57,528 nt of DNA from positions 1 through 57,528 of the forward strand of contig NZ_JACSWC010000431.1 of NCBI RefSeq assembly GCF_016888165.1, read 5' to 3'. The position numbers were made by a program, and so were the translations under genes. Every line of letters begins with the position of its first letter. Position 1 is the first letter of the stretch. The stretch is from Halomicronema sp. CCY15110 (GTDB lineage Bacteria > Cyanobacteriota > Cyanobacteriia > Phormidesmidales > Phormidesmidaceae). The notes under the pieces are model-generated. The model saw only the letters and a list, made by a program, of their open reading frames with translations. It made no database searches and was not told the origin of the DNA. Shown here one piece after another: positions 5,804-15,631 of this stretch.

Positions 5804-8107
5804 TCAGGGCTGAATGGTGCCCGATCGCACTCCTTCGCTGTATTCGCGATCGAGTTTGAACACGACCACAGCCATGGGCGGCAACGTCACGTCAATGGAA
5901 TAGGCTTGGCTATGATACGCCCAGTCATCTGTCCACTTACCGCCGAGATTGCCCATGTTGCTGCCGCCAAATTCGCGGGCATCGCTGTTAAAGATCTCGC
6001 GATAGTAGCCGCTCTCGGGTACGCCCAGACGGTAGTGGCTATGGGGCTGGGGAGTGAAATTGCAGATGATCACCACAAAGTCATGACTGTCGCGATCGCG
6101 GCGAATAAACGACACCACGCTGTGCCGGTTATCGTTACAGTCAATCCACTCAAAGCCATCTTGCGAGAAGTCGTTGGTATAAAGCGCGGGCTCGCTCTTA
6201 TACAACTCGTTCAGCTTCGTCATAAAGGTGTGATGCTTTTGGTGGGGCTCATATTGCAGCAGGTGCCATTCCAAATCGCCCCACACATTCCACTCGCTCC
6301 ACTGCCCGTACTCCATGCTCATGAAGAGGGTCTTTTTGCCGGGATGCGTAAACATGTAGGAAAAAAGGCACCGCATATTGGCAAACTTTTGCCACTCATC
6401 CCCCGGCATTTTGCCGAGCATATTGCTCTTGCCGTGCACGACCTCGTCGTGGGACAAGGCCAGCATAAAGTTTTCACTAAAGGCATACCAAATGCTGAAA
6501 GTCACATTGTTTTGGTGGAATTGCCGAAACCACGGATCCATGTGGAAGTAATCCAGCATGTCGTGCATCCAACCCATATTCCACTTGAGGTTGAAGCCGA
6601 GGCCGCCGACGTAGGTAGGCCAAGACACCATGGGCCAAGAGGTTGATTCTTCCGCAATGGAAAGCACCCCCGGAAAATAGCTGAAGACCACATGGTTCAC
6701 TTGCCGCAAGAAGTCAGCCGCTTCGATGTTTTCGCGACCGCCATAGTCGTTGGCGACCCAGGCCCCGTCTTCCCGCAGGTAGTCAAGGTAGAGCATCGAC
6801 GCCACGGCATCCACGCGCATCCCGTCGATATGGTACTTGTCAAACCAAAACAGGGCATTGGCCACGAGAAAGTTCCGCACCTCGTTGCGCCCATAGTTAA
6901 AGACCAGAGTGCCCCATTGCTTGTGCTCGCCCTGACGCGGATCCGCATGTTCATACAAATGGGTGCCGTCGAAGAAGGCCAGACCATGACCGTCTTTCGG
7001 AAAATGACCCGGTACCCAGTCAATCAGGACGCCAATGCCCGCCTGGTGGCACTGATCGACGAAGTACATGAAATCTTCGGGGGTGCCGTAGCGCGAGGTC
7101 GCGGCATAGTAGCCCGTGACCTGATAACCCCAGGAACCGTCGAACGGATGCTCCGCGATCGGCAGTAACTCAATATGGGTAAACCCCAACTCTTTGACGT
7201 AGGGAATCAGTTTAGCCGCGAGTTCTCGATAAGTGAGGAAGCGTGCCCCGGGTTTGAGATCCGCCACCTGTACGGCTGGCTGAATCGTGCCATCGGGCAG
7301 CTGTGCGGGGTCAGCCGAGGAGCCATGGAGCCAAGAACCCAGATGAACTTCATACACCGAGACGGGGTGATCCAGTGGTTCAGTGTGTCGTCGCTGCTCC
7401 AGCCAGTCAGCGTCCTGCCATTCGTAGGCATCGAGGTCGGTGACGATGGAAGCGGTTTTGGGCCGGACTTCTTGCTGAAAGCCGTAGGGGTCAGACTTTT
7501 CGTAAATGTGGCCGTGGGGGTTTTTGATTTCGTATTTGTAGTGCTCGCCGTAGCCAATTTCGGGGATGAACAGCTCCCAAATGCCGTTGCCGATGCGGCG
7601 CATTTGGTGCTTGCGGCCATCCCAATAGTTGAAGTCACCCAACACCGAAACGTTGCGTGCGCCCGGTGCCCAAACGGCAAAGTAAACCCCGCTGACGCCA
7701 TCGATTTCGGTGACGTGGGCTCCCAGTTTTTCGTAGATGCGGTGGTGGTTGCCTTCGGCAAACAGATGCACATCAAAGTCCGTGATGTGCCGTGTTTTAA
7801 AGGCGTAGGGATCGTAGACGAAGCGCTCGTGTTCCCCTTCCGTGTACTTGAATTGATAATTGCTCAGCTCTTGGGTGGTGAGTACGCATTCGAAAAAGTG
7901 GGGATTATGCCCCTTTTCCATCGGGTGTTCGCTACGGCTTTCGGGCAAGACGACCCACGCTTCGTCGGCGGTTGGCAGATAGGCTCTGATGGCCCATACC
8001 GTCTGGCCATCTTGTTGAATCATGTGGGGACCCAGGACCTCGAAGGGATCGTGGTGCTGGTTCCAAACAATGCTATCAATCTGCTCTGGAGCAACCGTAA
8101 CAGCCAT
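5804..8107 (-). CDS. glgB: 1,4-alpha-glucan branching enzyme
   Basis: A 767-aa GH13 enzyme that makes the alpha-1,6 branches of glycogen. It has the long two-module N-terminus of cyanobacterial GlgB (starch-binding-like modules at about 20-110 and 130-225). The catalytic barrel carries nucleophile D433 (GMRVDAV), acid/base E486 (SIAEES) and transition-state D554 ([10 protein letters not shown]). The C-terminal all-beta domain ends the protein. The ATG at 8107 gives the usual start MAVTVAPEQ. No other glycogen genes are nearby, so it is probably monocistronic and ends at the 5725-5759 hairpin. Confidence 0.97.
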
Positions 8108-9694: not shown

Positions 9695-9728
9695 GTAGAA
9701 AGGAATGGTAGATGCACCCTGATTTCTA

Positions 9729-9757
9729 ACCCTCGGCCTCACGGTCGGGGGTTTTTT
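9729..9757 (+). terminator. Intrinsic terminator of the PPC/TPR gene
   Basis: A 10-bp stem, ACCCTCGGCC with GGTCGGGGGT, including two G-U pairs, a TCAC tetraloop, and an immediate run of six T. This is a classic rho-independent signal about 117 bp after the stop at 9612. The rest of the 9613-10001 gap shows nothing else convincing. Confidence 0.85.
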
Positions 9758-10001
9758 ATTGCTGGTGAGCGGGCGCTTGATAGCAAGCCATCAATATCTA
9801 ATCCCCGATGGGTTACCGATGAAACCGCCCTGAGGTTGAACAAAAGCGATACACTAACCTCGACAGGTCTACCCAATGCCCCATGCTTCTCGCCATGGGG
9901 ATGAACGTGTGCAGCCGCGATCTCGACTCATGTACCAGAGCGATCGCCCCTGGCTGCCGATGCAGAGCCTGTCAGGTTGAATTGTTCAAGTCTTCAAACG
10001 C

Positions 10002-11832: not shown

Positions 11833-11846
11833 AATTGGCTACCCCA

Positions 11847-11916
11847 GGGGACGGTTCCCGGTCGAATTAGTCGAATTAACTGATACGGAAAGGTCCCGAT
11901 CAAGGGAACCGTCCCC
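11847..11916. repeat. Inverted repeat enclosing a 9-bp tandem repeat
   Basis: GGGGACGGTTCCC (11847-11859) and GGGAACCGTCCCC (11904-11916) are perfect 13-bp inverted arms. The 44-nt interior holds GTCGAATTA twice in tandem (11861-11878). A competing hairpin, GGTCCC (11892-11897) with GGGAACC (11904-11910), uses the same right arm. It starts 15 bp after a stop codon and could act as a terminator, but the form is that of a small REP/MITE-like element. The rest of 11833-12294 shows nothing clear. Confidence 0.7.
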
Positions 11917-12294
11917 TCTATCCTTGGCTTTTTCATCTATGATTTTTTGATGCTTTTGTTATGAGTCTGTCCCTAACTGTCAAATGTTCTGTGGGCAAAA
12001 AACTGGCAACTTGGCGATTCGTCACTACAATACTGGAGACTTTTGGCAAAGCCTGAGGAAAATTGGTGTCATCGCCCCAAAAAGCTGCTAGTATTTCAGC
12101 CATTTGAAAGTCCTTGAGAGCTTGCTTGGGGCATTGTCTCGCCCGGAGTCAGCCTGTTAAAATCTTGATGAGGATTGAAACAGGTGTACCACAAAAAGGG
12201 CGATCGCCTTTCTTCAGCTGGTGTCTGCCTACTTGCTAAGGGCGCTCTGCCAACGTTCTCCATTTTGACCAATCCCCGTGGTTTGAGGTTTCCT

Positions 12295-13698
12295 GTGTCT
12301 AGTCGAAAATCCTATCGCCCGATTCGCCACTATCAGCCCCATCCTTCCGCCCAAAAGGCGCGGCGGTTTCGGATTCCGAAATGGCTAGGGGTCAGTGTGG
12401 CGTTGTTGAGCGTTGGGACAATCTCAGCGGTGGGAGGGGCGATGATGGCCGTTTCGCTTAACAGCACGCCACTGCTGCACGACAGCCTCACCGAAGAAGA
12501 GTCTGCCGTCTTTAACAATAATGATCCGATTACGGCGGGCAATAGTTTGCAAGTGCCGAAGTTGACCCGCCCGGTCAATATCTTGGTGCTCGGCATGAAG
12601 GTGCTGACCACCGATGTCAATGACTTGCCCCCTGAGGCGCGTAATTTGGGTTATCACGCCCTGGTGAACTCCTTTGATGGCCTGTCGGATACGATGCTGC
12701 TGGTGCGTTTCAACCCGCATACTGACCAGCTCATCGTCTTATCGCTGCCGCGAGATACGCGAACCATGGTGCAAGGTCAAATGACCAAGCTGAATGAGGC
12801 GAATCACTATGGTGGCCCTGCTTTGGCCGCCCGCTCGGTCAGCGATTTGCTCGGCGGGGTCGAGATCGATCGCTACGTCCGCATCAATGTCCAAGGGGTC
12901 GAAAAGCTGATTGATGCTCTCGGGGGCGTGACGGTCAATGTGCCTAAAGATTTGCAATATCAGGACGACAGCCAACATCTCTACATCAATCTGAAAGCCG
13001 GGGAACAGCAGCTAGATGGTGATAAGGCCCTCCAGTTCCTCCGGTTTCGGTATGACGACTATGGCGATATTGGCCGTATTCAGCGGCAACAAATGTTGAT
13101 GCGGGCCTTGGTCGAACAGGCGCTGAGTCCCAAAACGGTGGCGCGCTTACCCAAAGTTCTTTCGGTGGTGCAGTCCCATGTGGACACTAACCTGAGCATC
13201 GAAGAGCTGTTGGCCTTGGCGGGATATGCCGCTAATACCGACGCTTACAATACGCAGATGTTGATGCTGCCCGGTGATTTTAGTAGCAGCAGTGAGTTTG
13301 AGCTGAGTTACTGGTTGCCCAATCTCGGCGAAATTGACACCATGGTGTCGGAATATTTTGGTTATGGCACGCGTCAGGTCGCGGCGTCTGCCGATCCACA
13401 ATCGCTGCGCATTGCCATTCAAGACAGCACGGGCAATGCGATCGCCGTGGATAACCTTGTCCAGACGCTTTACGACAGCGGCTACTATAACGTTTACATC
13501 GAGCGGCCCTGGAATTCAGAACTGCCCTTTACTCGGGTGGTGGCTCAGAATGGTGACTTGGCCAGTGCCGAGACGCTCCAGCGCTTTTTGGGCGTGGGCG
13601 ATGTCCGAGTCGAGAGCACCGGCGTCCTCGACTCGGACATCACCATTCAAATTGGCCGTGACTGGCTCGATGAGTACGGCACCAGCTCTAGCTTGTAG
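12295..13698 (+). CDS. LytR-CpsA-Psr (LCP) family ligase
   Basis: 467 aa from the GTG at 12295, chosen because GAGG stands 6 nt upstream; a TTG at 12175 would add 40 residues but has GAGGA only 1 nt before it. A basic cytoplasmic N-terminus and one transmembrane helix (LGVSVALLSVGTISAVGG) precede the LCP catalytic domain (DTMLLVRFNP, LSLPRDTR, RINVQGVEKLIDALGGV, FLRFRYDDYGDIGRIQRQQ), with the conserved Asp and Arg residues that bind polyprenyl pyrophosphate. A LytR_C domain ends the protein. LCP proteins attach glycopolymers to the cell wall. It overlaps no gene and sits 8 bp before the next one. Confidence 0.93.
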   Translation: MSSRKSYRPIRHYQPHPSAQKARRFRIPKWLGVSVALLSVGTISAVGGAMMAVSLNSTPLLHDSLTEEESAVFNNNDPITAGNSLQVPKLTRPVNILVLGMKVLTTDVNDLPPEARNLGYHALVNSFDGLSDTMLLVRFNPHTDQLIVLSLPRDTRTMVQGQMTKLNEANHYGGPALAARSVSDLLGGVEIDRYVRINVQGVEKLIDALGGVTVNVPKDLQYQDDSQHLYINLKAGEQQLDGDKALQFLRFRYDDYGDIGRIQRQQMLMRALVEQALSPKTVARLPKVLSVVQSHVDTNLSIEELLALAGYAANTDAYNTQMLMLPGDFSSSSEFELSYWLPNLGEIDTMVSEYFGYGTRQVAASADPQSLRIAIQDSTGNAIAVDNLVQTLYDSGYYNVYIERPWNSELPFTRVVAQNGDLASAETLQRFLGVGDVRVESTGVLDSDITIQIGRDWLDEYGTSSSL

Positions 13699-13706
13699 GA
13701 ATTAAT

Positions 13707-14255
13707 ATGGCAACGCCCCAGATCTTGCAGCTGCATGTGTGGCTATTGGATAGCGAGCCGCCGATCTGGCGTCGCTTTGAAGTCAGTGACCAAATCACGC
13801 TGGATGCGTTACACGGGGTGCTGCAGCGGGTGATGGGCTGGGAATTTAGCCACCTGTACGACTTTGAAATTGTCGGCGATCGCTACGCTTCCCCGTTTCC
13901 CGTTCCCCTCGATGGCACGCTGGATGCGACTACCCCTCTGCTAGCAAGCTTCCAACTCACGAAAGACACGCAGTTTACCTACACCTATGACTTTGGGGAT
14001 GGCTGGCGACATCAGATCACGGTGGCGGACATCCTGCCTTGGCGCAGTGATGTGAAGTTACCCCGTTGCCTAGAGGGCGATCGCGCCTGCCCCCCTGAAG
14101 ATTGCGGCGGCGTTTGGGGCTACGAAGGGTTGCTAGAGCGCTTAGCGGATCCTGAAGACCCCGAATATGAGGAATTGCTGGACTGGATCGGGGTTGACTT
14201 TGACTCCGAACGCTTCAAAGTTGACGCCGTCAACGCTCAGTTGCAGTCCGTCTAA
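13707..14255 (+). CDS. pRiA4b ORF-3-like protein
   Basis: A 182-aa protein of the plasmid pRiA4b ORF-3 family: LQLHVWLLDSEPPIWRRFEV, LDALHGVLQRVMGW, the YDFGDGWRHQI motif, and the C-PPEDCGG segment. The biochemical role of this family is unknown, though members are sometimes linked to mobile elements. Here it begins 8 bp after the LCP gene, so the two are probably co-transcribed. Codon use matches the chromosome, and nothing suggests recent transfer. Confidence 0.88.
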   Translation: MATPQILQLHVWLLDSEPPIWRRFEVSDQITLDALHGVLQRVMGWEFSHLYDFEIVGDRYASPFPVPLDGTLDATTPLLASFQLTKDTQFTYTYDFGDGWRHQITVADILPWRSDVKLPRCLEGDRACPPEDCGGVWGYEGLLERLADPEDPEYEELLDWIGVDFDSERFKVDAVNAQLQSV

Positions 14256-14278
14256 ACGAACCCCCTCGTCGCGGAAAA

Positions 14279-14350
14279 ACCGACACGGCCAGCGACTAGC
14301 TGCGGTTGCCGTGTCGGTCGTTGACGGAATTGGGGGAGACCGCAGCTAGT
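14279..14350 (+). ncRNA. Candidate H-type pseudoknot RNA
   Basis: Two perfect inverted repeats interlock. Stem 1 is ACCGACACGGC (14279-14289) with GCCGTGTCGGT (14308-14318). Stem 2 is ACTAGCTGCGGT (14295-14306) with ACCGCAGCTAGT (14339-14350). The left arm of stem 2 lies in the loop of stem 1, with connecting loops of 5, 1 and 20 nt, the geometry of an H-type pseudoknot. It lies 24 bp after the pRiA4b gene and about 330 bp before the sigma gene. It may be a 3'-end structure, a 5' UTR element or a separate RNA. The rest of the 14256-14677 gap is promoter DNA with an HLR1 site. Confidence 0.55.
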
Positions 14351-14555
14351 TGATGCTCAATATTTCTTTACAATCCCTCAAGAAAGCATCGAGCTTGCTC
14401 TCAGCTTGGCGGGCGCGCGATCGCGGTTTTGTGATTTCGGATGCAGTTTCCCAAAGCTTGAAAAGGCTATGATCTGGCAACTCTACGGCATACTCTATAT
14501 ATAAAAGCTTCCTTAAGAATCCTCCCTAAGAAACCCCTCAAAGCCTCTCATAAAT

Positions 14556-14573
14556 GTTACATTGGTTTACATG
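14556..14573 (+). promoter_or_regulatory. HLR1-like element (RpaB site) upstream of the sigma gene
   Basis: GTTACATTGGTTTACATG matches the HLR1 consensus (G/T)TTACA(T/A)(T/A)NN(G/T)TTACA(T/A)(T/A) except at the last base. HLR1 is bound by the response regulator RpaB to control high-light genes in cyanobacteria. It lies 105 bp before the sigma-factor ATG. A weak -35/-10 pair (TTGCGA 14625-14630, TATATC 14647-14652) follows. Confidence 0.6.
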
Positions 14574-14677
14574 AAGGTGGTTGTGACGTGACGTTTCTCA
14601 TTTTGGCTCTAGGCTGCTGAGCTGTTGCGATCAGATAACCGCGATTTATATCTGTGTCACTTATTCGCGCTGTTCCC

Positions 14678-15631
14678 ATGAAAACAACCCAAAGTACTGA
14701 TCTGGTGCGGACGTATTTGAAAGAGATTGGTCGGGTGCCCCTCCTGACTCATGAAGAGGAGATTGTTCTGGGAAAGCAGGTACAGCAACTGACGGCGCTG
14801 GAAAAGATTAAAGACGCCCTCGTTGATGAGTTGGAACGCGAGCCTACGGACCAAGAATGGGCTGAAGCGGCTGAGATGGCAGTTGGCGAACTCCAAACCT
14901 TGGTGCGAATTGGCAGTCAGGCCAAGCGCAAGATGGTTGAGGCTAACCTGCGGCTAGTGGTGTCTGTTGCTAAAAAGTACATCAAGCGCAATGTTGACCT
15001 GCTCGACCTGATTCAGGAAGGCACCATTGGCATGCAGCGAGGCGTGGAAAAGTTTGACCCGACCAAGGGCTACCGCTTTTCTACCTATGCGTACTGGTGG
15101 ATTCGGCAAGCCATTACCCGAGCGATCGCGGAAAAAAGCCGCACCATTCGTCTGCCCATCCACATTACTGAAAAGCTCAACAAAATTAAGAAGGTGCAGC
15201 GCCAGCTATCACAGCAGCATGGGCGAGCGGCTACCGTGTCGGAGATTGCTGATGCTCTAGAACTCTCTCCCCAACAGGTGCGTGATTACTTAGAGAAATC
15301 CCGGCAACCGCTGTCGTTGGATTTGCGGGTCGGTGATAACCAAGATACCGAGCTGAGCGAGCTGCTTGAGGACGATGGCATTTCGCCCGAAGAATTTGCC
15401 ACCCAGTCCTCCCTGAAAAGCGATTTGGACCGGCTCATGGTGGATTTGACGCCGCAACAGCGCCAAGTGCTCACTCTGCGGTTTGGGCTGACGGATGGCA
15501 AAACCATGACCCTGGCTAAAATCGGCGAAATTCTGAGCGTGTCCCGGGAGCGGGTGCGGCAGATTGAACGTGAGGCACTCTCTTCACTGCGCAAGCGCCG
15601 GAGCGATGTACGCGAGTACCTGGCTAGTTAG
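14678..15631 (+). CDS. Group 2 RNA polymerase sigma factor (SigD-like)
   Basis: A 317-aa sigma-70 factor lacking the long N-terminal region of SigA. Region 1.2 ([20 protein letters not shown]), region 2 with the -10-recognition helix ([19 protein letters not shown]), region 3 and region 4 with the -35 helix ([18 protein letters not shown]) are all present. The N-terminus and [18 protein letters not shown] look most like SigD/SigB of model cyanobacteria. SigD is light- and redox-responsive, which agrees with the HLR1-like element upstream. The ATG at 14678 is preferred to a GTG eight codons earlier because the family starts there. Confidence 0.92.

Follow-up and report, generated by a model that had tools for sequence, protein, structure and literature searches.

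Two long inverted repeats that interlock within 72 nucleotides of a cyanobacterial intergenic spacer raise the question of whether they encode a structured RNA of a new kind, or whether they have come together in a more ordinary way. The repeats, here called P1 and P2, lie in a stretch of 57,528 nucleotides from Halomicronema sp. CCY15110 (the window), between a gene resembling ORF-3 of plasmid pRiA4b and a gene for a sigma factor (Table 1). An earlier note on this DNA took them to form a perfect H-type pseudoknot, a fold that occurs in frameshift signals and in the preQ1 and SAM-II riboswitches.

Table 1. The interlocked repeats and the features around them, in window positions.
Feature	Position	Strand	Basis
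LytR_cpsA_psr family gene	12175-13698	plus	domain match
Plasmid pRiA4b ORF-3-like gene (PF07929), 182 aa	13707-14255	plus	domain match
P0, third pairing	14261-14265 and 14267-14270 with 14332-14336 and 14323-14326	plus	MFE structures
TTTTT (AAAAA on the plus strand)	14274-14278	minus	directly 3' of P1; predicted terminator U-tract, leftward-facing
P1, perfect, 11 bp, 18-nt loop	arms 14279-14289 / 14308-14318	n/a	inverted-repeat search
P2, perfect, 12 bp, 32-nt loop	arms 14295-14306 / 14339-14350	n/a	inverted-repeat search
HLR1-like box, 17/18 positions of KTTACAWW-N2-KTTACAWW	14556-14573	plus	by-eye match, upstream of sigma gene
Sigma-70 family gene (regions 1.2, 2, 3, 4)	14678-15631	plus	domain match, start at ATG 14678

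Geometry and genomic setting

The coordinates, arm lengths and loops given in the earlier note were exact on recheck. By inspection of the sequence and by repeat search, P1 and P2 interlock with loops of 5, 1 and 20 nt, and the order of the arms, in which the loop of P1 pairs with sequence 3' of P1, confirms the H-type topology. Extended past their perfect cores, the repeats have arms of 16 and 17 nt at 88%, with the mismatches scattered. Three details had escaped the earlier note. The outward extension of P2 pairs (G-U counted) at four of the next five positions, so that the 5-nt loop 1 would be consumed; P1 is flanked by a T-tract on the minus strand, where the arms read P2, P1, P2, P1, then TTTTT; and a third pairing, P0, nests around P1 as a competitor of P2.

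Domain matches to PF07929 and to sigma-70 bear out the two neighbours, and the SigD/RpoD3 type of the sigma gene, the longest frame of which opens with a GTG at 14654, is the earlier note's label only. Among named organisms, Leptolyngbya, Oscillatoria and Halomicronema have the proteins closest to the pRiA4-like one. The pRiA4-like gene follows the LytR-type gene after a gap of 8 nt, and the two are probably co-transcribed, as far as the sequence can tell. P1 begins 24 nt beyond the final base of the stop codon of the pRiA4 gene, which leaves a gap of 23 nt. A frameshift signal was considered and rejected, because the structure lies after the stop codon, 23 nt past the end of the pRiA4 frame at 14255.

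An HLR1-like element upstream of the sigma gene is present, as had been noted before; the consensus is that quoted in PMC13421787, and its core AATGTTACR occurs in 27 of 30 sigma-gene upstream regions, our own counted. In S. elongatus, RpaB on an HLR1-type box represses the SigD-type gene rpoD3 (PMC2758279). The P1/P2 element occupies the border that separates the end of one unit from the promoter region of the following one; from this position it would probably lie outside the mRNA of the sigma gene, barring read-through.

About 240 nt before the sigma start, at 14440-14473, there is a GATGCARTT motif, followed here by TATGAT, which is present in 9 of the 30 upstream regions (own counted) and could be a distal promoter element. 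A 15-bp perfect inverted repeat (13600-13641) lies in the 3' part of the LytR-type coding region; of its 30 arm positions, 4 are different in the sister genome G001.

Rarity of the interlock and the search for copies

One hundred first-order Markov sequences of window length (5.75 Mb, loops up to 12, 8 and 30 nt) contained no interlocked pair with both stems of at least 9 bp, and interlocked perfect stems of at least 8 bp averaged 0.04 per sequence. The window holds 7 perfect repeats of at least 11 bp (loops up to 40 nt, P1 and P2 counted) against 0.6 in the Markov sequences, and because long inverted repeats are abundant and non-random in this genome, real sequence is the fairer control. With wider loops allowed (15, 15 and 40), interlocked pairs with both stems of at least 9 bp were absent from a sample of 469,360 bases of this genome (34 stretches out of 6.15 Mb, picked by contig number and not strictly random) and from 519,999 sampled bases of the sister G001 (26 stretches, all from one contig); single repeats of at least 11 bp numbered 40 and 36 in these samples. 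The earlier note had called the arrangement very unlikely by chance, and with no pair of this size in the Markov sequences and none in 989 kb of real sequence this judgement holds. A survey of 191 loci from mixed organisms (1.12 Mb; stems of at least 8 bp summing to at least 18) gave a 9/9 bp pair whose arms overlap by 2 (L163), a low-complexity 13/15 bp pair (L135), and interlocked stems of 16/8, 12/8 and 10/8 bp in L170 and L188, the remaining matches being copies of the P1/P2 element itself. The interlocked arrangement is real, rare and beyond chance, yet it has parallels.

No relative of the element emerged from the databases. Rfam (4227 families) gave no match at the element, either at the gathering threshold over the window or at E up to 10 over 14150-14700, in agreement with the earlier note, which knew of no named RNA like it. 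Its own genome has no second copy, and the exact P1 pattern was found in 115 genomes, own included, only as the own copy. BLAST of the element against 59 genomes (own included, E up to 10) returned only short non-self matches, of which the best, 25 nt in G026, and those in G034 and G006 all lie in open coding frames. Two covariance models, R2 for P0 with P1 and R3 for P2, found no convincing homologue in 60 genomes of the order, the present one among them; the best non-self E values per genome, 0.11 for R2 and 0.035 for R3, are about chance level for 60 genomes, and the matches in G006, G034 and G081, the last being the best, again fall in open coding frames. In 11 loci of relatives R2 found nothing and R3 a single weak match (E 0.74), and R3 failed to recover the corresponding spacer of G001. 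No plasmid matched at E up to 1, phages had two weak matches (E 0.1) inside a tail fibre gene, and a 22-base stretch of the element had no exact counterpart among viral contigs. Among listed titles and abstract openings of papers on pseudoknots together with cyanobacterial terminators, intergenic regions or sigma factors, and in passages of PMC1242208, no description of the element was found.

Elsewhere in the window, positions 9706-9759 (plus strand) match the Rfam family NsiR1 (RF02399) with 52 bits, above the cut-off. Matches over the cut-off occur in 32 of 39 genomes including this one, some with several close together; a name that refers to nitrogen stress may be too narrow for this family. 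A c-di-AMP riboswitch (RF00379, 73 bits) lies at 6339-6471 on the minus strand of L177, from the same genome.

The element could also be a copy of a dispersed hairpin repeat of the REP or MITE type. Cyanobacterial small dispersed repeats were reportedly the subject of work by Elhai et al. in 2008, and hairpin repeats with arms of 15-20 bp and loops of 33-36 nt are scattered in the present genome and in G001, one of them in the window at 11846-11917. A 15-mer is common to the element and the loop of one G001 copy. The same 15-mer is however also found in a coding frame (L002), and the best pairwise score of the element was reached by 6 of 500 random stretches of the window, so that it is weakly unusual at most. 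Membership in the family of about 63 nt was rejected despite the shared 15-mer, since the profile of the family misses the element. The cyanobacterial REP and small dispersed repeats of PMC3733652 are likewise intergenic palindromes, from which the element differs in being single-copy. The G001 spacer has only other matches of 20-25 nt in six genomes of the genus, and as neither spacer has a second full-length copy, the element is not a mobile repeat. We give an origin as a dispersed repeat hardly any credence.

The copy at 11846-11917 belongs to the 63-nt family with a profile E of 6e-10. The repeat has the arms AGGGGACGGGTCCCT/AGGGACCCGTCCCCT and a variable loop of about 33 nt, and a BLAST query taken from G001 gave 9 other matches in the present genome (G000), 21 in G001, with one place counted on both strands, and none in four other members of the genus. 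Among 27 aligned copies there are several arm pairs of which both bases have changed, in each case in single copies. Other families (TAGGGGCGAGGC.. and AGAACTCCGATTTCT..) show a like layout by eye.

Comparison with the sister genome

Relatives of the pRiA4-like protein are encoded by 59 of 63 genomes of the order, but the order pRiA4-sigma was seen only in our window and in G001 (L032) among 110 pRiA4 loci, which come from two sets (30 and 80) and some of which end early at contig ends. With one syntenic relative, the comparison is one of two sequences at 41% identity (39 of 95 columns of the spacer). The neighbouring blocks have 23/31, 109/146 and 158/183 identical positions, the two right-hand ones being better conserved than the spacer, and conservation resumes at about 14354, in the sigma promoter region.

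The two repeats have fared differently in this short comparison. P1 keeps 5 of its 11 standard pairs in G001, against 2-6 in controls with slid partners, while P2 keeps 8 of 12, against 1-5. The inner seven pairs of P2 are unbroken and include one double change from G-C to A-U and one change from C-G to U-G. The homology of P2 is read from the syntenic alignment only, because its covariance model missed the G001 spacer. That spacer is predicted to fold into an ordinary long hairpin with a small one alongside (z -3.79), of another sequence than the hairpins here, with the kept part of P2 in a nested hairpin. Compensating changes in both stems, the sign of a conserved pseudoknot RNA such as the earlier note implied, are thus not what the one relative displays: P2 shows them in part, with its one double change, and P1 is broken without compensation, at the level of the controls. 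A stem broken in this way is what the earlier note had named as refuting its proposal, so that a conserved pseudoknot RNA is not supported, on the evidence of a single relative.

A spacer that evolves this fast could have acquired the interlock as a functionless by-product of mutation, by templated inverted duplication or quasi-palindrome repair. The arms run past their cores with scattered mismatches, as those of decaying inverted duplications would, the spacer is far less conserved than the blocks to its right, and the element has no other copy in the genome. Against such an origin, the pairing of P2 is partly kept in G001 with a compensatory change, the minus-strand T-tract fits P1 exactly, and long repeats favour the ends of genes, as described below. 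We consider the by-product unlikely, though worth some weight.

Folding and the ends of transcripts

The stability of the two duplexes is nearly equal (-21.3 kcal/mol for P1, -21.5 for P2). The fold predicted for the plus strand, by a program without a pseudoknot model, is nested, with P0 around P1, at -43.8 kcal/mol (z -2.86). As 2 nt link the P2 arm to the far end of P0, P0 and P2 would exclude each other on a geometric reading. Going by A-RNA helix parameters and the reach per nucleotide, a plus-strand pseudoknot would have its 5-nt loop 1 stretch over about 32-34 Angstrom out of a maximum of about 36, a tight but possible fit. On the minus strand a 5-nt loop would need about 42-44 Angstrom against about 36, too short for two full stems, so P1 and P2 cannot fully coexist there according to this estimate.

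A pseudoknot may form in this one species. On the plus strand, where the pRiA4 mRNA ends, it could hold back exonucleases or polymerase, or it could control in cis how much transcription reads through into the sigma gene. The exact topology, the two perfect stems far past random expectation, their near equal stability and a loop 1 that may just suffice all fit this. The loss of P1 in G001, the lack of an Rfam match and of any convincing R2 or R3 homologue in the 60 genomes (E 0.035 or worse), the competing nested fold of P0 and P1, and the extension of P2 that eats into loop 1 all count against it, and we regard a functional pseudoknot of this kind as rather improbable. Compared with known H-type pseudoknots, the arm order and the short loop 2 are alike, but the 12-bp stem 2 is long for a loop 1 of 5 nt, a nested competitor exists, and the element is unconserved in G001 and lies outside a reading frame, past the stop codon.

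A GC-rich hairpin followed by a U-tract, the mark of an intrinsic terminator, is found on the minus strand and is missing on the plus strand. In the d'Aubenton Carafa score P1 reaches +24.5 on the minus strand, in the range of the other sampled terminator-like repeats, and between 14231 and 14720 no other hairpin scores above zero, whichever strand is read. On the plus strand P1 (-6.8) and P2 (-8.3) both fail, so that termination in this direction is unproven. A standard scan of 13600-14800, which takes loops of 3-8 nt only, gave no terminator on either strand and did not list P1; for the same range no promoter was found on either strand, by a scan that also failed to list one for the sigma gene. 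In the G001 spacer neither strand has a positive-scoring hairpin or other terminator-like site, and the minus-strand terminator is consequently not conserved.

The arm order on the minus strand invites the idea of an attenuator or small RNA, in which leftward transcription from the sigma promoter region makes P2 first, after which it depends on the formation of P1 with its U-tract, scoring as a terminator there, whether termination follows. However, no minus-strand gene was seen downstream for such a device to regulate, other than antisense to pRiA4, and the lack of a promoter in the scan and of a terminator-like site in G001 speaks against it; the 5-nt loop moreover cannot span the full P2 on this strand. 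We find this improbable.

Long perfect repeats in this genome prefer the ends of genes. In the window and 241.8 kb of its own genome, with ORFs called by length only, 30 perfect repeats of at least 11 bp were found: 6 in ORFs, 19 at most 80 nt past a facing stop codon (P1, P2 and one place counted twice among them) and 5 elsewhere. Outside ORFs, 19 of 24 repeats are thus near a facing stop, against 25.6% of random non-ORF positions, and this preference favours a role at the gene end. Another perfect inverted repeat, at 19870-19914 of L177, lies 47 nt past the end of a plus-strand ORF, at the end of the sampled stretch, and resembles P1 in being terminator-like on the minus strand only (+21.7, against -13.3 on the plus strand).

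We favour, with confidence that is evenly balanced, an ordinary structured gene end, where hairpins fence off the lytR-pRiA4 unit from the sigma promoter, P2 being the older and P1 specific to this lineage. That G001 keeps only part of one repeat makes such an end likelier than a conserved new RNA. The spacer after the lytR-pRiA4 unit and before the conserved sigma promoter region carries strong inverted repeats; P2 would be the older hairpin, which persists in part as a stem in G001, and P1 would have arisen, or taken the place of another hairpin, in this lineage. Read leftward, P1 with its TTTTT would terminate antisense transcription that leaves the sigma promoter region, and so shield the pRiA4 gene; a terminator against antisense transcription is what P1 most plausibly is. 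Read rightward, the DNA gives a strong hairpin at 23 nt from the stop codon, surrounded by P0 or P2, which could stabilise the 3' end of the pRiA4 mRNA or help to define it. The interlocking would then have come about because two gene-end hairpins overlap in a short spacer. The analysis shows the sequence, its rarity and single copy, its position, the terminator score on the minus strand and, in G001, the loss of P1 with part of P2 kept; that the hairpins terminate or stabilise transcripts, in which direction they act and which of them came first is what we infer. Against the structured gene end stand the failing scores on the plus strand, the standard scan with neither terminator nor minus-strand promoter, the absence of a terminator-like site from G001 and the comparison with one relative only; moreover, the interlock of P1 with a perfect 12-bp P2 is rarer than gene-end hairpins alone predict, with no others in 989 kb.

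The nearest known systems are terminators and structured ends. Intrinsic terminators, including the bidirectional and antisense-facing ones, share with P1 the GC-rich stem, the TTTTT on the minus strand and the site at a gene end, but the 18-nt loop of P1 houses an arm of a second stem, the element is not conserved in G001, and the strand of the adjacent gene has no U-tract. Rho is absent from cyanobacteria. In S. elongatus a hairpin with a U-tract ends 22% of units, and of the defined ends that have no U-tract 46% (75/163) are structured (PMC13289151); the authors describe the U-tract-less ends broadly as lacking strong structure, which counts against our reading. These structured ends have in common with the element a strong structure soon after the stop codon, with no U-tract on the plus strand, in a phylum without Rho, but they are a minority there; the word pseudoknot is absent from the main text of PMC13289151.

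We think it very unlikely that a true pseudoknot forms the end of the pRiA4 mRNA, where it would stop 3' exonucleases or trap RNA polymerase and would be a recent structure, built in this lineage on an older hairpin. If a pseudoknot did form and set the 3' end, the transcript would finish in an unusual way, with a pseudoknot and no U-tract, in a phylum without Rho in which the majority of ends lack an explanation. The locus also calls for caution: an interlocked repeat beyond chance in a single genome does not by itself make a conserved RNA. As an ordinary gene end, it would offer one detailed case of how cyanobacteria without Rho may end and protect their transcripts and keep neighbouring units separate.
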